Origin: Pelobacter seleniigenes DSM 18267
GTDB lineage: Bacteria; Desulfobacterota; Desulfuromonadia; Desulfuromonadales; Geopsychrobacteraceae
Assembly (NCBI RefSeq): GCF_000711225.1
Contig: NZ_JOMG01000002.1
Span: forward strand, 384,501-448,500
DNA length: 64,000 nucleotides
Direction: 5' to 3'
Under the pieces are notes generated by a model that was not told the DNA's origin, made no database searches, and was given only the letters and a program-made list of their open reading frames with translations. The position numbers were made by a program, and so were the translations under genes. Below, piece by piece: positions 12,633 to 27,531 of the stretch; position 1 is the first letter of the stretch, and every line of letters starts with the position of its first letter.

Positions 12633-12728
12633 TTCTGTAGCGGGAGATCGGTGCTCATCTGGATGATAAATGCCTGACTCGTTGATATTGCGAAGTCGGG
12701 AAAATCGTACTTATCCCGGAATGGTGGT

Positions 12729-12897
12729 CGTTTAAGCACCCTTGCAGTAAACTCAGGACTGTCCCCATGGTCATCGGGGGCTGTCCCAAGAGTTTGCGAG
12801 CCATGAAACTGGAGGGGTCCGCACCGCAAAGACCTGGGATAGCGCCCGTACGGGGACAGTCCCGGTTTTGCTGCCATCTACTCTTAAACGAGCGCCA
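12729..12897. repeat. Dispersed palindromic repeat R1, copy A
   Basis: About 169 bp with imperfect inverted ends: CGTTTAAG at 12729 and CTTAAACG ending at 12890. The ends continue as GCAGTAAACTCAGGACTGTCC on the left and, read in reverse, GCAGCAAAACCGGGACTGTCC on the right. Inside are further GGGCTGTCCC-type units and the shared block AGTTTGCGAGCCATGAAACT. Four more copies lie at 18.97-20.96 kb. Confidence 0.85.
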
Positions 12898-13036
12898 TTC
12901 TATTTATCCCGACCTTACTTTAAAATATTTCAGGATGGACTTTTTCAACAATCTGTTAAGCTTTGTTTTAAATACCGACCGAATCATTTCCTTTTTCACT
13001 GGTAGCCGTGGTTTAACTGGAAAAAAAGGAGGTTTC

Positions 13037-13222
13037 ATGCTGAGAATGGCCGTATTCGGAGTGTTGCAGACCCTTTTTTTCGCCTTTATCCTGAAGAACT
13101 ATCTCCATCTATCGTGGCCAGGAACATTTATGACCCTGCTAACGATATTTCTCCTGCTGTTCTCCCGTGTCTGGTACCTTGTCAAAGGCCAAAAAAAGCA
13201 GCATCAGCCCCAAGAACATTAA
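13037..13222 (+). CDS. Small membrane protein, 61 residues
   Basis: The start ATG 13037 is set by AGGAGG six bases upstream; the frame is open further up but without a better site. Two hydrophobic helices are evident (AVFGVLQTLFFAFIL and FMTLLTIFLLLFSRVWYLV) with a short loop NYLHLSWPG and a basic, Gln-rich tail (KGQKKQHQPQEH). I do not recognise the family. It lies between repeat R1-A and hipBA, with no clear partner. Confidence 0.55.
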   Translation: MLRMAVFGVLQTLFFAFILKNYLHLSWPGTFMTLLTIFLLLFSRVWYLVKGQKKQHQPQEH

Positions 13223-13549
13223 CTGCCAGACACTGCATCGCCAATTTTCATAACGGGAGCCTGGCGGATCGCTGGCAATACTCTCTGTACCTTCAGAAGC
13301 GGGCCACAGTCAGCTGTACAGAGCACAGCCGCTGTCGGCACAATTTTCCCCACCCAGGGGCACTTTGGTTCCTTTTCAATCGACCTCAAAACCAACTCAT
13401 CTCTATTCGCAATATTTGACGGTATACAAGAAATTTTCATAACAAATCGCCATGAACGACGAATTAAAATAATATTTATATTTTTACTTATCGCACTCTA
13501 TGTCGAATTAAGATAAAATAACCGCATATATCAACAAAGGTGACGAAAA
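13223..13549. promoter_or_regulatory. Gene-free stretch holding the hipBA promoter region
   Basis: No gene seen. The last 100 bases are very AT-rich. Near 13458 and 13502 stand two direct repeats, GACGAATTAAAATAAT and GTCGAATTAAGATAAA, and a TTATC...GATAA dyad (13488-13515) lies just before hipB. These are candidate HipB operators, since HipB proteins bind TATCC/GGATA-like dyads in their own promoters. No footprint can be inferred from sequence. Confidence 0.35.
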
Positions 13550-13891
13550 ATGACAATCGATAAACTCACGACTGACAAGGCCGTTTTATCGACCCTGGGA
13601 AAGCGCCTGGCTCGGCACCGCATTGCACAAAACTTCACCCAGGAAAGCCTGGCGAACGAGGCCGGCATATCGAAGCGCACGCTGGAACGCCTGGAGGCCG
13701 GGCAATCCAGCCAACTTCTGACCGTCGTTCGCGTGCTGCGCGCCCTGGATATGCTAAACCTGCTTGAGGCGGCAATTCCTGAAGCGATGCCCCGCCCGGC
13801 CGAACTGCTGAAGATCGGCAAAGAGCGGCAGCGGGCTTCGTCAAAAAGAAAAGAGAGTGCCGAAGAGCCTTGGCAGTGGGGGGATGAATAA
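13550..13891 (+). CDS. hipB: HipB-type antitoxin, Cro/C1 HTH protein
   Basis: XRE-family DNA-binding protein, 113 residues. The HTH lies at about 17-70 (LGKRLARHRIAQNFTQESLANEAGISKRTLERLEAG), followed by a Pro/Lys/Arg-rich, probably flexible tail. It overlaps hipA by one base (TAATG at 13888-13892 region), the usual antitoxin-first arrangement. It should repress its own promoter and neutralise the HipA kinase. AAAGGTGACG precedes ATG 13550. Confidence 0.88.
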   Translation: MTIDKLTTDKAVLSTLGKRLARHRIAQNFTQESLANEAGISKRTLERLEAGQSSQLLTVVRVLRALDMLNLLEAAIPEAMPRPAELLKIGKERQRASSKRKESAEEPWQWGDE

Positions 13892-15198
13892 TGGCGACAG
13901 TTGCCGAGGTGAAACTGTGGGGCAGGACCATCGGGGCGGTTGCCATTGAGGACAATACATCCACAGCCCTGTTCGAGTATGACGAAAAATTCGCCCGGAG
14001 TGGCATCGAGGTCGCTCCCCTGACCATGCCGCTTGCGCAACGCGTCTATTCTTTCCCCGAGTTGCGCCAAGAGACCTTTCACGGATTGCCGGGGCTTCTG
14101 GCTGATTCATTGCCGGATCGGTTCGGCAACGCCCTGATCAATGCCTGGCTGGCCACACAGGGGCGTAAGCCCGACTCTTTCAATGCCGTCGAGCGCCTCT
14201 GTTATACCGGCAGCAGAGGCATGGGAGCGCTGGAATATGCCCCGGCCATAGGATTTCGCCAACGCAAGTCAAACCCCATCGAAATAAGCCAGCTCGTGGA
14301 ACTGGCTTCCGAGATTTTGACGCACCGCAATAACTTTGCAGCGGTTTTCGGTGACGACAGCGCCAAGGAAGAAGCCTTGCGCGATATCCTGCGCGTTGGC
14401 ACCTCGGCCGGTGGCGCTCGCGCCAAGGCCGTCATCGCCTGGAACCCGCAAAGCGGAGAGGTCCGTTCCGGCCAGGTCAAAACCGCTCCGGGCTTCGAAC
14501 CCTGGCTCCTGAAATTCGACGGCGTCTCCGGCAATAAGGATAAAGAGAGGGAGGATCCAAAAGGATACGGCGCTATCGAGTATGCCTATCACAAAATGGC
14601 CACGGCTGCCGGGATTGAAATGAGCGAATGCCGCCTTCTGGAAGAAAACGGCCGCCGCCACTTCATGACCCGCCGCTTCGATCGCCAGGCAGACGGCAGC
14701 AAACTGCACATGCAGTCACTGGGAGCAATGGCCCACTTCGATTACAATCTGGCAGGAGCCTATTCATACGAGCAGGCGCTGATGACGTTACGACAGCTCG
14801 GCCTGCCCATGAGTGCCATCGAACAGCAATTCCGCCGCATGGCCTTCAACATCATCGCCCGCAACCAGGACGACCACGTTAAGAATATTGCCTTCCTGAT
14901 GGACAAGAAAGGCCAATGGTCCCTCTCCCCGGCTTTCGATGTCACCTACAGCTATCACCCGGACGGCAACTGGACCAGCTCACATCAGATGACGCTCAAC
15001 CAAAAACGCGACAGCTTCAATATGGACGACTTCAAGACCTGCGCCGCAACAGTGTCTATGAAAAAAGGCCGCGCAGAGGCGATCTGCCAGGAAGTGACCA
15101 ATGTTGTCCGGCGCTGGAACGACTACGCCGAAGAGGCCCACGTCGCCCCGCACTGGCGCGATGAGATTTCACGTAATCTGCGGATTTCGTTGGTGTAG
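13891..15198 (+). CDS. hipA: HipA-type Ser/Thr kinase toxin
   Basis: Kinase of 435 residues with an N-terminal subdomain ending in YCYTGSRGMGALEY-like sequence. The loop VGTSAGGARAKA at about 169-180 is equivalent to the regulatory P-loop whose Ser is autophosphorylated in E. coli. The catalytic segment ARNQDDHVKN lies at about 323-332, and SPAFDVTYSY at about 346-355 holds the metal-binding Asp. All key residues are present, so it should be active. E. coli HipA phosphorylates glutamyl-tRNA synthetase, and other HipA types use other targets. The gene is intact and about 5-8 residues shorter or longer than typical members. Surrounding repeats and unknown genes point to an accessory region. Confidence 0.92.
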   Translation: MATVAEVKLWGRTIGAVAIEDNTSTALFEYDEKFARSGIEVAPLTMPLAQRVYSFPELRQETFHGLPGLLADSLPDRFGNALINAWLATQGRKPDSFNAVERLCYTGSRGMGALEYAPAIGFRQRKSNPIEISQLVELASEILTHRNNFAAVFGDDSAKEEALRDILRVGTSAGGARAKAVIAWNPQSGEVRSGQVKTAPGFEPWLLKFDGVSGNKDKEREDPKGYGAIEYAYHKMATAAGIEMSECRLLEENGRRHFMTRRFDRQADGSKLHMQSLGAMAHFDYNLAGAYSYEQALMTLRQLGLPMSAIEQQFRRMAFNIIARNQDDHVKNIAFLMDKKGQWSLSPAFDVTYSYHPDGNWTSSHQMTLNQKRDSFNMDDFKTCAATVSMKKGRAEAICQEVTNVVRRWNDYAEEAHVAPHWRDEISRNLRISLV

Positions 15199-16071
15199 GT
15201 GTGCGTTTTAAAACTTACGAGATTTTAGACGGATTTTATGGTCCAGACTGCCCGATTTACCCTAAGGTGAAGTAAGATCCCGATGCAGCATAATTTACGA
15301 GAACTCTCCGCGCCACAATTGGTAGCCGAAGCGTTCAATGTGCTGGAAATGGTGACGGTGAGAATTGAGAGCTGAAAAAACAATCAATAGCTTACGAAAT
15401 TCAATGGTTAAGATATAATAGTTCGGCTTGCTATAGAGGGATACGAATTTGCTTACGTGAAAATTCTGACGTTCCATCCTTTATAACTTCTCAGCGTTAA
15501 CTTGTTTTGGACAAAAACAGTGCCTGTGAATTTCCGCCTATTTAATGAATGGCGGTAGAGCCATAAGGCTAGCAAGGTGGAATAAAGCTGTGGAGCGAAA
15601 ATCGCCAGGCGGATTTTTAGTCGATAAACCAAGGAGGAAACCTATCCTGATCTGGAAGGGATTTGGTGATTTGCCCGTTGTGTTTTTCATATTGACTGGT
15701 CTGTCTTTCACGCCCGGGTAAAATGGCGGCATGTAGAATGAAACCCTGGCTTATATTCTCATGGTGACAAGTTTTGCTAGGCGCTCTTAGGTTGGTGCCT
15801 ATACGTCCGACAAGCACCGTGATTGATAAAGAAACGGGCGAAGAATTTATCCTGCGCAACTTCCATTCGCTTTTCTTCACCCTACTCCACTACTGTGGGC
15901 CAATGCTTCTGATTCTGGGAACCGTATTACGTTTCAAGGGGGGGGGTGACATGCGCGTACAACGGTGATAATGGCTCTGAAGTAACATTTCGTGTTGGGC
16001 AATTAGCTCCACGCTGGTGTTTCTTCCAATAGCAACAATATCGAAAAAAATTTACTGGGGAGAAAGAATTT
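15199..16071. other. Low-GC gap with no convincing intact gene
   Basis: About 870 bases between hipA and the zinc-ribbon gene. One frame on the + strand (15774-15968) reads like real protein: VPIRPTSTVIDKETGEEF, then a hydrophobic segment (LLHYCGPMLLILGTVLRF). It has no ribosome site or good start and may be the remnant of a membrane-protein gene. The reading frame MQHNLRELSAPQ at 15283-15375 is too short to support. Nothing else was recognised. Confidence 0.4.
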
Positions 16072-16488
16072 GTGGCAAGTCACGTGAACCGCGAATGTCC
16101 TTATTGCCGGCATCTGATTGAACACCATATCCCCCTATTTGACTACGCTCTGTTCATCGGCCCGGAACGTTTGATCTGTCCGCAATGTGGCAAAGCGTCA
16201 CTGACTGGCCGACGCTATTGGGCCGATCTGTCCGCAGTGTGGAAGTTCCTGGTGGTGAGAGGACTACTGATATCAATTCTGATGTACGGCGTGATGTTTT
16301 TCTTGCTTCTTGCGGCTGGTGTCGTTTTTGTGGTCGACAAACTGCTGGATCTGCCTGTGACGAATGAGTTCGCATCCTTGGTGCTCCTGCCGATCTCCTT
16401 GATACTGTCCGCTGGTTATCATGGGCTTCGGTTGAAAAAACTGGCAACTCCACAGCCAGAACACCGTAATGTAGCCGCGCAAAAATAA
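16072..16488 (+). CDS. Zinc-ribbon membrane protein of unknown function
   Basis: Protein of 138 residues starting at GTG 16072 with GGGGAG about nine bases upstream. Two CxxC pairs (CPYCRHL near 9 and CPQCGKAS near 37) form a probable zinc ribbon on the cytoplasmic side. Two membrane helices follow (about 60-88, then 98-120). It lies 12 bases before the ankyrin gene, so the two form an operon. I do not recognise the family. The stretch has lower GC than its surroundings. Confidence 0.6.
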   Translation: MASHVNRECPYCRHLIEHHIPLFDYALFIGPERLICPQCGKASLTGRRYWADLSAVWKFLVVRGLLISILMYGVMFFLLLAAGVVFVVDKLLDLPVTNEFASLVLLPISLILSAGYHGLRLKKLATPQPEHRNVAAQK

Positions 16489-16500
16489 GGGGGGTTAAAG

Positions 16501-17505
16501 GTGCCTTTTCTTACGTGTCCTTTACTGAAAGCCGCTTCCGCCGGGGATGTCGAAACTCTCATCACCTTGATTGAGCAAGGATCTGATGTCAACGTGCAGG
16601 ACGAAAACGGCTGGAGCCCGCTCCATGCCACTATGCTGGGAATGCATTTCGGCAGCGGTCGCAATTATCCTGATCAGGTAACCTGTGCCCGGTTGTTGCT
16701 GGAAGCCGGAGCCGACCCGGCACTGAAGGTGTTTGGCAAATGTGATGTCATGAATCTTGCCGTGACCAACCGAGTTGCGGCGCTGGTAGCGATGCTCAAA
16801 GAACGCGGTATGAAGATTCTGCCCAGTTGCTCTTTGTTGGAGTTTATTGAAGGCTGGCCAAGAGAATGGGATCGACGTATCGTCGAGGAATGCAGAGAAG
16901 TTTTGCAGATGATGCTGCAGGAAAGTCCCGATATCAACGAGAAAACCGAGGATGACCGCTCGCTGACAGCGTTGCATATTGCCTGTAGTCGGGGGCACCA
17001 TGCGGCCATTAATGATTTGCTGGCTGCTGGTGCCGATCCCAATATCTGCGATAATGATGGTGATTCACCACTGGCCTATCTGGCGAACTTCGCCTGGCGT
17101 TCACGGACCGATTGCCTGGAGTCCATCAGGGCTTTGATTCGTTGTGGTGCTGATCTGAATCTCTGTGGAAACGGGGGGCATTCTGAAACAGCTTTGAGTT
17201 GGTTGGTCAAATACGGTGGCAATCGCTTATATGTAATCACTTTATTGCTGGAGTCCGGCGCAGACCCCAATCGTGCCAACAGTAAAGGCGAAACCCCCTT
17301 GATGTTCGCGGCCCAAAGTGACCGGGCGGACGTGCTCCAGACGTTAATGATGTTTGGGGCGGATTCTGAACTGCGCGATGAGCAAGGGATGACTGCGTTG
17401 GCTCACGCCCGCAATAATAACCGTCAGCAGGCAGTTGAGGTTCTGGAGAAAAATATTGGGGCATCCCGGAGCGTAATAAAGGTTGAGGTGTTTTCTTTGC
17501 GTTGA
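16501..17505 (+). CDS. Ankyrin-repeat protein
   Basis: Protein of 334 residues from GTG 16501 (GGGGGG upstream) made almost wholly of ankyrin repeats. Clear units are EQGSDVNVQDENGWSPLH near 25, LLEAGADPALK near 70, TALHIACSRGHHAAINDLLA near 155, GADPNICDNDGDSPLAYLA near 178, GADLNLCGNGGHSETALSW near 215, GADPNRANSKGETPLMFAA near 250 and GADSELRDEQGMTALAHAR near 285. There is no signal peptide, so it is probably cytoplasmic and binds a partner protein. It shares an operon with the zinc-ribbon membrane protein. The partner and role are unknown; some bacterial ankyrin proteins act as immunity or regulatory proteins. Confidence 0.88.
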   Translation: MPFLTCPLLKAASAGDVETLITLIEQGSDVNVQDENGWSPLHATMLGMHFGSGRNYPDQVTCARLLLEAGADPALKVFGKCDVMNLAVTNRVAALVAMLKERGMKILPSCSLLEFIEGWPREWDRRIVEECREVLQMMLQESPDINEKTEDDRSLTALHIACSRGHHAAINDLLAAGADPNICDNDGDSPLAYLANFAWRSRTDCLESIRALIRCGADLNLCGNGGHSETALSWLVKYGGNRLYVITLLLESGADPNRANSKGETPLMFAAQSDRADVLQTLMMFGADSELRDEQGMTALAHARNNNRQQAVEVLEKNIGASRSVIKVEVFSLR

Positions 17506-17525
17506 TTTTAGACCGGGCAGCATTC

Positions 17526-17939
17526 TTAACAAGAAAAACCATTGCTTCCTTTTACGCCCCCTGCGCGACGTATTCTTAATACATAACCCACCAGTGACAA
17601 TAAGAGTATCAGCCAGACAATACTGAGACGCCTGGCCGCCACCGTCCATTGCCAGTCGCCGCGCTCCTTTTCAAGAAAATACCAAGTGTTGATTTTGATA
17701 CCTTCAACGGCGAGTGGATGACCGGAAATCAGGTTCTTTTCGAACCCATCTGTGTCGACAACACAGTCCACCCCAGTTGAAGTTTTGCCCCATAGATGAA
17801 AATTTCGTCGCCATTCTGGGTGGGTATTGTTGCTGCCCCAACGACTGCCGCCTGTGGTTGTGACGCTGACTGGAATCTCTTCTAGAAGTTCAAAGTTGTG
17901 GGTAATTGTGACGAGCCCGTATTCGCGAATGGACGTCAT
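17526..17939 (-). CDS. Tail-anchored hypothetical protein
   Basis: Protein of 137 residues with no family I can name. Residues 1-105 look like a soluble beta-rich domain (VSVTTTGGSRWGSNN, VDCVVDTDGFEKNLISGHPL, INTWYFLEKERGDW). One C-terminal membrane helix at about 108-126 (LSIVWLILLLSLVGYVL) is followed by RIRR, so the bulk may face outward. There is no signal peptide or strong ribosome site, so the start is uncertain and the protein may be the 3' part of a longer decayed gene. It converges on the ankyrin gene. Confidence 0.4.
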   Translation of the reverse strand: MTSIREYGLVTITHNFELLEEIPVSVTTTGGSRWGSNNTHPEWRRNFHLWGKTSTGVDCVVDTDGFEKNLISGHPLAVEGIKINTWYFLEKERGDWQWTVAARRLSIVWLILLLSLVGYVLRIRRAGGVKGSNGFSC

Positions 17940-18148
17940 AAAATATTGCTGGCAATTTATCCCTTGTCAAAGAACAGTGGGCGGCCTTACCATAAAAGGG
18001 TTGTTCCCGATGGGTCTGTTTTCAACAAACGAACCGGGGTTACCTGAAATAATGTGAAGCCGGTGAGCAAATTATCTTTGTCGATTGCGCCTGCCGCTTT
18101 AAATCACAATCCGGAAAACGTAAGTGTCCTTTCTGCACCAGGATAAAA

Positions 18149-18745
18149 ATGCTTGAGATTGAAGACATCAAAACTCGCCTGGCCAGTTATCAGCCTCGTT
18201 TATCCAATATGGACGCGGAGCGTCAGGCAGCGGTGGCAATGATTCTCCGCCATGGCGAAAAGGGAACAGAAGTTCTGTTTATTCAGCGGGCGGAGCACGA
18301 GAAAGACCCGTGGTCTGGAGATCTCGGTTTTCCCGGTGGCCGCATTGAAGCAGATGACCCGTCTCCGCGCGCGGCTGCGGAGCGGGAAACCTGGGAAGAG
18401 ATCGGTTATACGCTGACCGACGCCAATTACCTTGGTCGTTGCGATGACATGGCCGGGGCCTTTCTTTCGGTCCGGATTTCCTGTTTCGTGTACACGATTT
18501 CGGAAGAAGCGGTTTTTCGCATCAACGGAGAGGTGGTCAAATATTTCTGGATTCCCCTGGCCACGCTGCTCGACCCGCAACGCAACAGGCATATGCACTT
18601 TTTTCATCGCGGATCTGACCGCCAGCATCCCGTGGTTCATCTCAACGAATGGAGTTCCCGCCCATTGTGGGGGATCACCTACCGGCTGGTGGACAATTTT
18701 TTCAACCTCTTTGATCTCTCCTTTACCTATCCGGAAAAGCTCTAA
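18149..18745 (+). CDS. Nudix hydrolase, CoA-pyrophosphatase type
   Basis: Protein of 198 residues, ATG 18149 with AGGA upstream. The Nudix box lies at about residues 66-90 (GFPGGRIEADDPS...AAERETWEEIGY), with the spacing between GG and RExxEE typical of NudL/CoA-diphosphatases and an Asp where MutT has the first Glu. The preceding AVAMILRHGEKGTEVLFIQRAEHEKDPWSGDLGFP also matches that group. Expected reaction: CoA or acyl-CoA to 3',5'-ADP and (acyl)phosphopantetheine. The substrate is inferred from family likeness only. Confidence 0.8.
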   Translation: MLEIEDIKTRLASYQPRLSNMDAERQAAVAMILRHGEKGTEVLFIQRAEHEKDPWSGDLGFPGGRIEADDPSPRAAAERETWEEIGYTLTDANYLGRCDDMAGAFLSVRISCFVYTISEEAVFRINGEVVKYFWIPLATLLDPQRNRHMHFFHRGSDRQHPVVHLNEWSSRPLWGITYRLVDNFFNLFDLSFTYPEKL

Positions 18746-18812
18746 AGCACGCCCGGCGTGCCGCCCTTGACTTCGGTCAGCTCCTCCCCGCACAATTTTG
18801 AGTATACTTAAG

Positions 18813-18964
18813 TTGATGAAAAAGTCCGTCCTGGGACTTTTTCATGCCCGGCGGGGAAAATGCGATTTCCCCCACCTTACAAAATCAATGACCTCAAAAC
18901 CTGCATTGATTTTGGTCGCCCATCCATGGGCTCAAAACAAGAAGTTGATGAAAAAGTCCGTCCT
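18813..18964. repeat. Hairpin-rich repeat R2, copy 1
   Basis: It begins and ends with the same 22-bp word, starting GTTGATGAAAAAGTCCGTCC (18813 and 18943). In between are AAAGTCC...GGACTTT, GGGGAAAATGCGATTTCCCC, TCAATGA...TCATTGA-like and GCCCATCCATGGGC palindromes. The second end word runs directly into R1 copy B, as if R1 had inserted there. A diverged second copy lies at 27385-27531. Confidence 0.65.
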
Positions 18965-19118
18965 GCAGCAAAACCGGGACTGTCCCCGCATGGGGGCTGT
19001 CCCAGGTCTTTGCGGTGCTAACCGCCACAGTTTCGAGGCTCGCAAACTCTTGGGACAGCCCCCGATACCCTGGGGACAGTCCCGAGTTTACTGCTAAGTT
19101 GCTTAAACGAGCGCCATT
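18965..19118. repeat. Dispersed palindromic repeat R1, copy B (inverted)
   Basis: Opposite orientation to copy A: it starts GCAGCAAAACCGGGACTGTC and ends with the CTTAAACGAGCGCCATTC edge. The central block (AGTTTCGAGGCTCGCAAACT) is the reverse of that in A. It abuts copy C with no spacer. Confidence 0.85.
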
Positions 19119-19240
19119 CGGGACTGTCCCCGCATGGGGCTGTCCCAGGTCTTTGCGGTGCTAACCGTGTCAGTTTCATGGCTCGCAAACTCTTGGGACA
19201 GCCCCCGATACCCCTGGGGACAGTCCCGAGTTTACTGCAA
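19119..19240. repeat. Dispersed palindromic repeat R1, copy C (inverted, shortened)
   Basis: Tandem with copy B. It starts at the GGGACTGTCCCC unit without the outer GCAGCAAAACC end and stops at GAGTTTACTGCAA, so both edges are trimmed. The internal sequence matches copy B closely. Confidence 0.8.
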
Positions 19241-19293
19241 GCGCCTCCGGAATCCCCCCATATTCCGGTTTGCTCTGCAGAGAGAGGAAAGAG

Positions 19294-20211
19294 ATGAGGC
19301 CTTGTCATATCCTGCTCACCGCTCTATTCATCCCCCTGTTGTTGTCCCCCACGACGGCCGCTGCCCATCCGCACCTGCTGGCTACAGCCAGCGGTACTGA
19401 GATCAGCTATCAGCAGTTGCTGACCGAGCTGAGCGCGGTCCAGGTGGTCTTTATCGGCGAGCTGCATGATCATGCCGGGCATCACCGCATGCAGTACGAA
19501 ATCATCCGCAGCCTTGAGCAGCAGCAACAGCCGCTGGCCATCGGTTTGGAGATGATCCAGATTGATGACCAGCCAACCCTTGACGCCTGGGTCGCCGGCA
19601 ATCTTGAGGAAACCGATCTGGTTGCGATGTTCAATCGCAATTGGAGCATGTGGCCGCTGTACCGGGATATTTTTGTCCTCGCCCGGGAACGGCGGATTCC
19701 CCTGCTCGCTTTGAACATCTCCCGTGACATCATCCGCCAGGTGGCCAAAAACGGCTTTGCCTCCCTCCCCCCGACCAGGCTGGAAGGGTTGGAAGGGGTG
19801 ACCTGCACGGTCGACCCCGCCTACGAACAGTTCATCCGCCGGGCCTTGGGCGAGCATGGCCACAATCCGACCAGCTTCCGTTATTTCTGTGAAGCGCAGC
19901 TGCTCTGGGATACGGCCATGGCCAAGCATCTCAACGATTTCCTCACGCGCCAGCCGGACTACCGGGTCGTTGTGCTGGCCGGCAGCGGGCATTCCTGGAA
20001 ATACGGTATCCCGCACCAGCTGACCAAGCTCGCCCCGCGAACGTTCCGGGTTCTGTTACCGGAAGTTCCCGGGCGGATCGACCGCACCCGGGCCAGTGTG
20101 GCAGACACCGATTTTCTCTGGCTGGATGTCGGCCCGCAGTCCTGGACGCTCAGTCCTTCACAACGCCCTCAGGCCGGGGAGCAAAAAAGCAGCGCAGCCG
20201 CGGCTGAATAA
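19294..20211 (+). CDS. ChaN family haem-binding protein
   Basis: Protein of 305 residues starting at ATG 19294 (GAGGAAA upstream) with an N-terminal signal peptide ending near TTAAAHP; no lipobox cysteine, unlike some ChaN proteins. The ChaN/DUF399 core shows VVFIGELHDHAGHHRMQ near 52 (the ExHD motif), LAIGLEMIQIDDQPTLDAW near 85, NWSMWPLYRDIFVLARERRIPLLALNISR near 115-145 and VVVLAGSGHSWKYGIP near 230. Campylobacter ChaN binds haem and is iron-regulated. Iron or haem handling in the periplasm is therefore likely but unproved. Its 5' side is packed with R1/R2 repeats. Confidence 0.85.
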   Translation: MRPCHILLTALFIPLLLSPTTAAAHPHLLATASGTEISYQQLLTELSAVQVVFIGELHDHAGHHRMQYEIIRSLEQQQQPLAIGLEMIQIDDQPTLDAWVAGNLEETDLVAMFNRNWSMWPLYRDIFVLARERRIPLLALNISRDIIRQVAKNGFASLPPTRLEGLEGVTCTVDPAYEQFIRRALGEHGHNPTSFRYFCEAQLLWDTAMAKHLNDFLTRQPDYRVVVLAGSGHSWKYGIPHQLTKLAPRTFRVLLPEVPGRIDRTRASVADTDFLWLDVGPQSWTLSPSQRPQAGEQKSSAAAAE

Positions 20212-20267
20212 ACCACTATGCTCTGAATATGCATAGGTTTTGACGGGACTGAAAGTCCTTAAAATAG

Positions 20268-20310
20268 CCCCCTCTTCCCTCGTGGGAGAGGGTTGGGGTG
20301 AGGGGGAAAC
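20268..20310. repeat. Short palindrome of the CCCTCTCCC...GGGAGAGGG type
   Basis: ccctcttccctcgtgggagaggg followed by ttggggtgaggggg. This resembles a very widespread short dispersed sequence seen in many proteobacterial genomes. It lies between chaN and R1 copy D and could also act as a terminator of chaN. Confidence 0.5.
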
Positions 20311-20326
20311 AGGCCAGATTGGTGCT

Positions 20327-20460
20327 AGTTTAAGCAACGTTGCAGTAAACTCGGGACTGTCCCAAGAGTTTGCGAGCCATGAAACTGTCGCGGTTAACAC
20401 CGCAAGGACCTGGGACAGTCCCGGTTTTGCTGCCAGCGACTCTTAAACGAGCGCCGTTCG
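20327..20460. repeat. Dispersed palindromic repeat R1, copy D
   Basis: Same orientation as copy A, about 134 bp. It starts AGTTTAAGCAACGTTGCAG and ends CTTAAACGAGCGCCGTTCG. One internal GTCCCC/GGGGAC pair seen in A and E is missing, so it is a shortened form. Confidence 0.85.
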
Positions 20461-20587
20461 GAACAGGGGAGTATTTCCACCCCCATCCTGACCTTCCCCC
20501 ATCAAGGAGGAAGGAATCAATTCATAGTTCATAGTTTTGAGCTAGCACGTTGGAACAATAAACCGCTTACCCACGGAGTGAACCATC

Positions 20588-20746
20588 ATGGATTTATTAC
20601 GGATTTTGATTGCCATTCTTCTGCCGCCGCTGGGCGTTTTCCTGCAGGTCGGCTTTGCCGGCGCCTTCTGGCTGAACATCCTGTTGACCCTGCTCGGCTA
20701 TATCCCCGGAATCGTTCACGCCGTCTGGGTGATTGCCAAGCGCTAG
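20588..20746 (+). CDS. PMP3/YqaE-type small membrane protein
   Basis: Fifty-two residues, starting ATG 20588 with GGAG nine bases upstream and stopping TAG 20744. The sequence has the full PMP3 (UPF0057) pattern: MDLLRILIAILLPPLGVFLQ, then two membrane helices, then NILLTLLGYIPGIVHAVWVI. Relatives affect membrane potential and salt or cold tolerance. It lies isolated between two R1 copies. Confidence 0.88.
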   Translation: MDLLRILIAILLPPLGVFLQVGFAGAFWLNILLTLLGYIPGIVHAVWVIAKR

Positions 20747-20802
20747 TTGATTTCATTCTCCTATCCCTGTATGGTTGGCCGCTGGCTGCGACATAAGGGG
20801 AC

Positions 20803-20957
20803 GCTCGTTTATGCAACGTTGCAGTAAACTCGGGACTGTCCCAAGAGTTTGCGAGCCATGAAACTGTAGCGCTTAGCACCGCAAAGACCTGGGACAGCCC
20901 CCATTCGGGGACAGTCCCGGTTTTGCTGCCATCGACTCTTAAACGAGCGCCATTCGG
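20803..20957. repeat. Dispersed palindromic repeat R1, copy E
   Basis: Same orientation as A. It has a full left end GCTCGTTTATGCAACGTTGC and right end GACTCTTAAACGAGCGCCAT. The outer bases GCTCGTTTA and TAAACGAGC form the terminal inverted repeat most clearly in this copy. Confidence 0.87.
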
Positions 20958-21048: not shown

Positions 21049-21513
21049 ATGATGAGAATATGGGTCGATGCCGATGCATGCCCGGCAGTGATCAAGGAGA
21101 TTTTATTTCGGGCCGCGCAAAGAACCGGCCTGCGGCTGACCCTGGTCGCCAATCACCGGCTCCGGGTACCACCGGCCGGCAATATCGATTTTCTTCTGGT
21201 TCCCGCCGGCTTTGATGTTGCGGACAATGAAATCATCCGCCAGCTGAGCCAGGGAGACCTGGTGATTACCGCCGATATCCCGTTGGCCGCTGAAGTGATC
21301 GACAACGGCGGCCAGGCGCTGAACCCACGCGGCGAACTCTATAACGAGGACACGATTCGGGAGCGCCTGAACATGCGGGATTTCCTGGACACTTTACGTG
21401 GGGTGGGCATTGAAACCGGTGGCCCGTCCGCCCTCACCAACAGCGACCGCAAAGCTTTCGCCGGACAACTGGACAAACTGCTCAGCCGCTACCAGCAGCA
21501 CCAGAACTCCTGA
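21049..21513 (+). CDS. YaiI/YqxD family protein (UPF0178)
   Basis: DUF188 protein of 153-154 residues; ATG 21049 or 21052 both fit the GGGGAG upstream. Typical blocks are [16 protein letters not shown] at the start, [12 protein letters not shown] near 64, [16 protein letters not shown] near 76 and [13 protein letters not shown] near 98. It is related to PIN-like nuclease folds with conserved Asp residues. Function is not established. Confidence 0.92.
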
Positions 21514-27384: not shown

Positions 27385-27531
27385 TTATTGAAAAGCCCAC
27401 CTCGGGACTTTTTCAAGCACAGCAGGGGAAATGCGGTCTTCCCTGCCTTACAAAATCAATAAGTTAGAGAGTCTCTTATTGATTTTAATCGCTCCTCCAT
27501 GAGCGCAGCAGGCTGTTTTTAACAGCCTGCC
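27385..27531. repeat. Hairpin-rich repeat R2, copy 2
   Basis: A diverged copy of 18813-18964 with the same order of blocks: GGGACTTTTTCA, GGGGAAATGCGGTCTTCCC, TTACAAAATCAATAA...TTATTGATTTT and CCTCCATGAGC. It ends in a perfect palindrome, GCAGGCTGTT-TTT-AACAGCCTGC. Confidence 0.6.

Follow-up and report, generated by a model that had tools for sequence, protein, structure and literature searches.

Among the mobile elements with which short bacterial palindromes can be compared, the IS4 subgroup of insertion sequences (IS) is described, in the excerpted text of De Palmenaer et al. 2008 (PMC2266710), by ends of the form -AATR--------WTW, a size of 1400-1650 bp and target duplications of 10-13 bp. 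A miniature inverted-repeat transposable element (MITE) named Chunjie, 235 bp long and with copies of 178-235 bp, is reported for Geobacter uraniireducens in the excerpts of PMC10969869. Those of PMC2817692 place repetitive extragenic palindromic sequences (REPs) with GT(A/G)G heads on both sides of the gene of a REP-associated tyrosine transposase (RAYT), and describe IS200/IS605 elements as lacking terminal inverted repeats and larger target duplications; insertion sequences that target REPs, including the IS4-family ISRm22, are treated in the excerpted part of Tobes and Pareja (PMC1525189). The present analysis concerns R1, a palindromic repeat of Pelobacter seleniigenes DSM 18267, taken from a stretch of 64,000 nucleotides (the window; contig NZ_JOMG01000002.1, positions 384,501 to 448,500), in which an earlier note had described five copies and had suggested a REP- or MITE-type element moved in trans, possibly by a RAYT. 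R1 is very probably a non-autonomous MITE of the IS4 group, IS4 family, whose shared ends would let it be moved by the DDE transposase of an autonomous element of IS4 type, which has a length of about 1555 bp and one open reading frame (ORF) of 490 amino acids.

A full copy of R1 measures 182 bp and is bounded by 18-bp terminal inverted repeats (GAATGGCGCTMGTTTAAG), inside which, among the aligned copies listed, two nested palindromic stems of GGGACTGTCCC / GGGGCTGTCCC are followed by a central block and by the mirror image of this arrangement. A genome-wide search, proposed in the earlier note together with the prospect that copies might be limited to this locus and lack consistent ends or empty sites, returned copies throughout the genome with consistent ends, and empty sites were also found (see below). 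Thus, a 21-base core (AGTTTGCGAGCCATGAAACTG) gave 75 matches (39 + 36) in 5.09 Mb at up to three mismatches and its reversed control none, GGGACTGTCCC gave 127 matches against three for its reversed control, and terminal-repeat matches (three or fewer mismatches) numbered six in the window against a mean of 0.05 in shuffled windows, so the repeats are not a product of chance. The ends quoted earlier are consistent between copies, and the true boundaries lie about 10 bp further out. Altogether, 70 element places were collected and the 58 of 140-200 bp were aligned. An intact full copy folds into a single long hairpin (z -11.7 as RNA), and copy 1 of the window gives z -6.7 as DNA; three weak matches to microRNA families of Rfam, far below the gathering scores, were taken as chance effects of the hairpin.

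Target duplications were analysed in 51 copies of 100-220 bp with both ends at four or fewer mismatches, among which two copies with one common flank and two array members were kept; 31 of the 51 have exactly the 182-bp length, with the terminal repeats at a fixed spacing. At a length of 11 bp, the identity of the direct flanks was 0.742, compared with a maximum of 0.447 in 500 permutations exchanging flanks among copies, and among the remaining lengths between 6 and 15 the permuted maximum was exceeded, slightly, at 12 alone (0.355 vs 0.345). Over these 11 bp, at least 8 positions match in 37 of the 51 copies, at least 10 in 25 and all in 8, and two additional copies, sharing one flank, match at 12/12. 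Insertion of R1 makes 11-bp, sometimes 12-bp, target duplications, and the 11-bp duplicates have the consensus GGGACWGTCCC, which is almost identical to R1's own inner units. The copies are intergenic as far as tested (49 of the 51, those with enough flank): stop-to-stop frames of at least 180 codons crossed the rejoined sites only once, and this frame was judged antisense-looking and spurious, so that no gene disruption by R1 was shown for frames of this length.

Empty sites, which the earlier note had proposed to look for in related strains, were found both in related genomes and, as a paralogous site, inside the window. In one relative (G109; G, C and L mark our genomes, contigs and loci), a 182-bp R1 copy is flanked on each side by GTTGGTTTCCC, and the same place holds a single target without the element in G103 (GTTGATTTCCC), G106 (GTTGATTTCCG) and G091 (GTTGATTTTCG). 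In the genome of P. seleniigenes, two copies of R2, an unrelated dispersed repeat, are interrupted by R1 at one identical point (C2:1471790 and C5:462743), and the uninterrupted R2 copy of the window (Table 1) is a paralogous empty site for R1. At the R1 copies C2:264032 and C2:1092096, R2 is present on one side only. R2 itself reads GTTGATGAAAAAGTCCGTCCTGG... with a GGGGAAAATGCGATTTCCCC hairpin; it also occurs at 27391-27507 of the window, and matches to it lie near several R1 copies elsewhere.

A candidate for the autonomous partner emerged from the PF01609 transposases of 12 MITE-bearing relatives. Seven copies of the 490-amino-acid ORF are present in G091, and all those inspected (6/7) are flanked by perfect GAATGGCGCTAGTTTAAG ends, 1555 bp apart. 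A truncated relative in G023, a genome inferred to be Desulfuromusa sp. GH17, has the same end, and its first 28 bases agree with the left end of R1 at 27 of 28 positions (by eye). The transposase scores 215.8 bits against the IS4 family model NF033592 (cut-off 115) and 23.0 bits, slightly below the cut-off of 25, against the Nterm_IS4 domain PF13006; its catalytic residues D156, D232 and E349 fit the D(60-110)D(100-150)E spacing of IS4, and it carries the Y(2)R(3)E(6)K (YREK) motif YYKRWDVELFFRDIK. Comparison by eye with Table 1 of PMC2266710 shows that the ends fit -AATR--------WTW----; the size of 1555 bp in G091 falls within 1400-1650 bp, and 21/37 copies have exact 10-12-bp repeats, within the 10-13 bp of the subgroup. 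Judged by its sequence, the autonomous element is an IS4-family, IS4-subgroup insertion sequence.

Copies of this IS were collected as 44 end pairs, accepted at up to five mismatches, from which four judged spurious were removed by hand; of the 40 remaining, three lack a flank, and the 37 with both flanks include 17 with exact 11-bp, three with exact 12-bp and one with exact 10-bp duplications. Target flanks at L249, L252, L263, L268 and L270 comprise sequences such as GGGACAGACCA and TGGTCTGTCCC, which resemble REP motifs that occur near RAYT genes; a RAYT-like gene stands beside 2 of the 40 IS loci, too few to assert a link. At least 61 loci with IS relatives were recorded in a non-exhaustive scan of named genomes with a few peptide patterns, many in Desulfuromonadales and Desulfobulbaceae, others in Gammaproteobacteria, Nitrospirota and further groups, mostly in metagenome bins. 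In each of two viral contigs the terminal repeat matches exactly at a single place, lacking a second repeat that faces it, and these matches were judged uninformative.

From these sequences we infer mobilisation of R1 in trans by the IS4-type transposase. This enzyme would recognise the 18-bp ends, excise the MITE and reinsert it at palindromic sites close to GGGACWGTCCC, where a stagger of 11 bp, or at times 12 bp, would produce the flanking duplications; the interior of R1, a long imperfect hairpin with about four target motifs, would itself offer landing sites.

Among 147 genomes, the own genome included, R1 was matched in 55 at E <= 0.001, with at most five candidates scored per genome, and the IS or fragments of it were matched in 28 at E <= 1.2e-9. 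Annotators of these bacteria will therefore meet R1 often. Many genomes hold the MITE and not the IS, a pattern that long-lived relics would show but that would also arise if another transposase were involved.

R1 could alternatively be a REP element of the type of bacterial interspersed mosaic elements (a REPIN), moved via single-stranded DNA by a RAYT-like transposase of the genome, and its palindromic structure, high copy number and intergenic setting, as far as tested, agree with this. Besides two IS200-type copies, the genome contains five RAYT-like Y1 genes, the products of two of which score 76.4 and 73.4 bits against the NCBIfam RAYT model, just below its cut-off of 80. Four of the five genes have one of three R1 copies at a distance of 2 kb or less (40 of 87 candidates scored), with about 0.06 copies expected per gene (75 per 5.09 Mb, by hand). 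The earlier note had proposed to look for a flanked gene of this kind, but R1 was not found on both sides of any of them: at the five loci, taken with about 1.5 kb on each side, R1 is one-sided at L005 and L006 and absent at L003, L004 and L007. Moreover, a different upstream end motif, AAAAACTAGGGACACTGCCCC or a near variant, is common to the genes at C1:365253, C1:373025, C1:375534 and C2:196858, and R1 starts with GAATGG, its palindrome not being preceded by a GT(A/G)G head. At C1:375048, an R1 copy has entered the palindrome downstream of one of these genes and is flanked by an 11/11 duplication (GGGAGTGTCCC), and there the RAYT unit is thus the target, not the mover; target choice explains the proximity for this gene and, as a guess, for the others. 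The 11-bp duplications and single-target empty sites speak against the RAYT/REP mechanism, by which no duplication of this kind arises, and together with the 18-bp terminal repeats shared with a DDE insertion sequence they led us to reject a RAYT as the mover of R1, an origin that we consider extremely improbable. From the suggestions of the earlier note, the MITE-type element moved in trans is retained, with its terminal repeats, duplications and ends of a DDE-type IS4 element, and the REP and RAYT part is dropped.

The assignment of R1 to the IS4 subgroup has also to be weighed against several observations that do not favour it. No copy of the autonomous IS4-subgroup element was found in the P. 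seleniigenes genome; the homology between R1 and the IS stops about 28 bp in (by eye), the interior of R1 not being visibly IS-derived; 12 of the 51 R1 copies, two of them array members, have no recognisable duplication, and 16 of the 37 flanked IS copies have no exact 9-13-bp one (four of these match at 9 or 10 of 11). Co-occurrence of MITE and IS is weak (13 genomes with both, Fisher p = 0.29, over all MITE matches; 11 genomes with both, p = 0.024, over strong MITE matches only), and target choice has been shown for just one of the RAYT-like genes near an R1 copy. In its present genome R1 is apparently orphaned, and its copies are probably immobile now, since no autonomous element was found here. 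Another DDE transposase still present might have moved it, for example a three-copy IS4-like element (C1:196326, C1:376010, C2:2931061), two copies of which are no more than 2 kb away from R1 copies and whose transposase is a distant relative: these were the only matches, all weak, of the IS transposase in the own genome (24-26% identity over 71-106 residues). Yet the two scanned copies of this different element (L167 and L169) lack paired R1-like ends (five or fewer mismatches), whereas the IS4-subgroup element matches R1 end for end, and we regard this origin as very unlikely. The own-genome search covered PF01609 only among DDE families; its six matches were rejected as partners, no paired R1 ends being present at the five scanned loci (L167 and L169-L172; not L168).

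Two observations on the RAYT-like genes stand apart from these questions. Loci L003, L004 and L005 (G000:C1:363753-377363) and L007 (G000:C2:195358-198687) form a family in which three members are open and much alike, while the fourth contains two stop codons. At L006 (G000:C1:193769-197104), the C-terminal part of the RAYT-like protein (residues 238-327) matches the terminal portion of DnaA at 46.7 bits, a score well under the curated cut-off.

The similarity between the target consensus and the interior of R1 bears on the formation of arrays by the IS4-type MITE. Matches to the target motif (one mismatch at most) number four in 37, three in 6 and two in 1 of the 44 R1 copies of at least 179 bp, and 39 of 40 IS copies have none. 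With about four such motifs in its interior, a resident R1 can serve as a target for further copies. Four arrays with five junctions exist among the 70 places (window 19119/19120, C1:389675, C2:2002100, C2:2002228 and C2:2333073), and the terminal repeat abuts an inner target motif at two of the five and is one base off at three. Insertion into a resident R1, followed by a presumed homologous recombination between the duplicated arms, may have produced these tandem arrays, and the inner motifs thus offer a concrete, testable route to them from dispersed copies. That R1 is a self-targeting MITE, with an interior selected to carry the landing sites of its transposase, is a tentative and rather unlikely proposal. 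If it is true, new copies would land in old copies and in other intergenic palindromes, among them the RAYT-linked palindrome and R2, not in genes, and this could explain the persistence of R1 across an order as well as its growth into arrays.

All five R1 copies described by the earlier note are present, between 12719 and 20955 of the window, with copies 2 and 3 as a tandem pair inverted relative to copies 1, 4 and 5, as had been claimed (Table 1). This local cluster is unusual: simulation gave P = 0.0004 for five copies within some span of this size at any place, and P = 0.013 for four when copies within 400 bp were merged, the span having been picked post hoc in both cases. The genes around the copies encode an ankyrin-repeat protein (16501-17505), a NUDIX protein (18149-18745), a ChaN-like haem-binding protein (19294-20211), Pmp3 (20588-20746) and a DUF188 protein (21049-21513), and no window copy overlaps any of the five. 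At 13550-15198, a gene for a helix-turn-helix regulator followed by a HipA-type gene forms a HipBA-like pair.

Table 1. R1 copies, flanking duplications and the uninterrupted R2 repeat, in window coordinates.
Feature	Position	Strand	Remarks
Copy 1, left duplication of the target site (TACTTATCCCG)	12708..12718	.	10/11 match to 12901-12911
R1 copy 1, full-length 182-bp MITE	12719..12900	+	terminal repeats 12719-12736 and 12883-12900
Copy 1, right duplication of the target site (TATTTATCCCG)	12901..12911	.	
R2, unrelated dispersed repeat, uninterrupted	18806..18960	+	18861-18871 (TGCGATTTCCC) is the single-copy target where two other R2 copies hold R1
R1 copy 2, tandem pair member	18965..19119	-	one terminal repeat 19102-19119, the other lost
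R1 copy 3	19120..19241	-	both terminal repeats lost; begins exactly at inner target motif GGGACTGTCCC (19120-19130)
R1 copy 4, 143 bp, inner stems shortened	20317..20459	+	possible decayed duplication 20306-20316 / 20460-20470 (8/11)
R1 copy 5, 160 bp	about 20796..20955	+	eroded on the left, with an intact terminal repeat on the right (20938-20955); no visible duplication

Taking these results together, the REP/RAYT reading of R1 is replaced by a tested IS4-MITE reading, and an autonomous partner is pointed out. No prior description of R1 was found in the open-licence full texts searched. The host of Chunjie, Geobacter uraniireducens, belongs to the same bacterial order, and the abstract of the paper on this MITE is said to report A+T-rich targets, unlike the GGGACWGTCCC of R1. 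The IS231 group comprises mobile cassettes and has the target GGG(N)5CCC, which is fitted by the R1 consensus. In the excerpted text of PMC10969869, Chunjie is, like R1, a short element with terminal and direct repeats that is present in tens of copies, many of them partial; by this description, it differs in size (235 bp vs 182 bp). As for IS231, the part of Table 1 of PMC2266710 that covers it lists duplications of 10-12 bp, as in R1, but ends beginning with CAT, whereas R1 and its IS begin with GAATG and so fit the subgroup IS4.

Systems of the REP/RAYT/REPIN kind, as the excerpts of PMC2817692 present them, resemble R1 in being palindromic, intergenic and of high copy number, and R1 differs from them in RAYT flanking, in the GT(A/G)G head and in its larger duplication. 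In ISRm22 (PMC1525189, excerpted), an IS4-family element is found in palindromic intergenic repeats, as here, although its duplications are reported as 6 bp, against 11 bp for R1, and R1 is non-autonomous and itself carries the target motif. The case shows how REP-like palindromes and a MITE can become entangled where palindromes of this kind are the preferred targets of the transposase. To the description of the IS4 subgroup in the excerpts of PMC2266710 the autonomous partner conforms in ends, size (1555 bp), 11-12-bp duplications, DDE spacing and YREK; R1 differs in having no transposase, an interior not visibly derived from an IS, and copies of the target motif. As far as searched, R1 is a new family of an already known kind, the MITE, and what is unusual in it is the built-in target motif.

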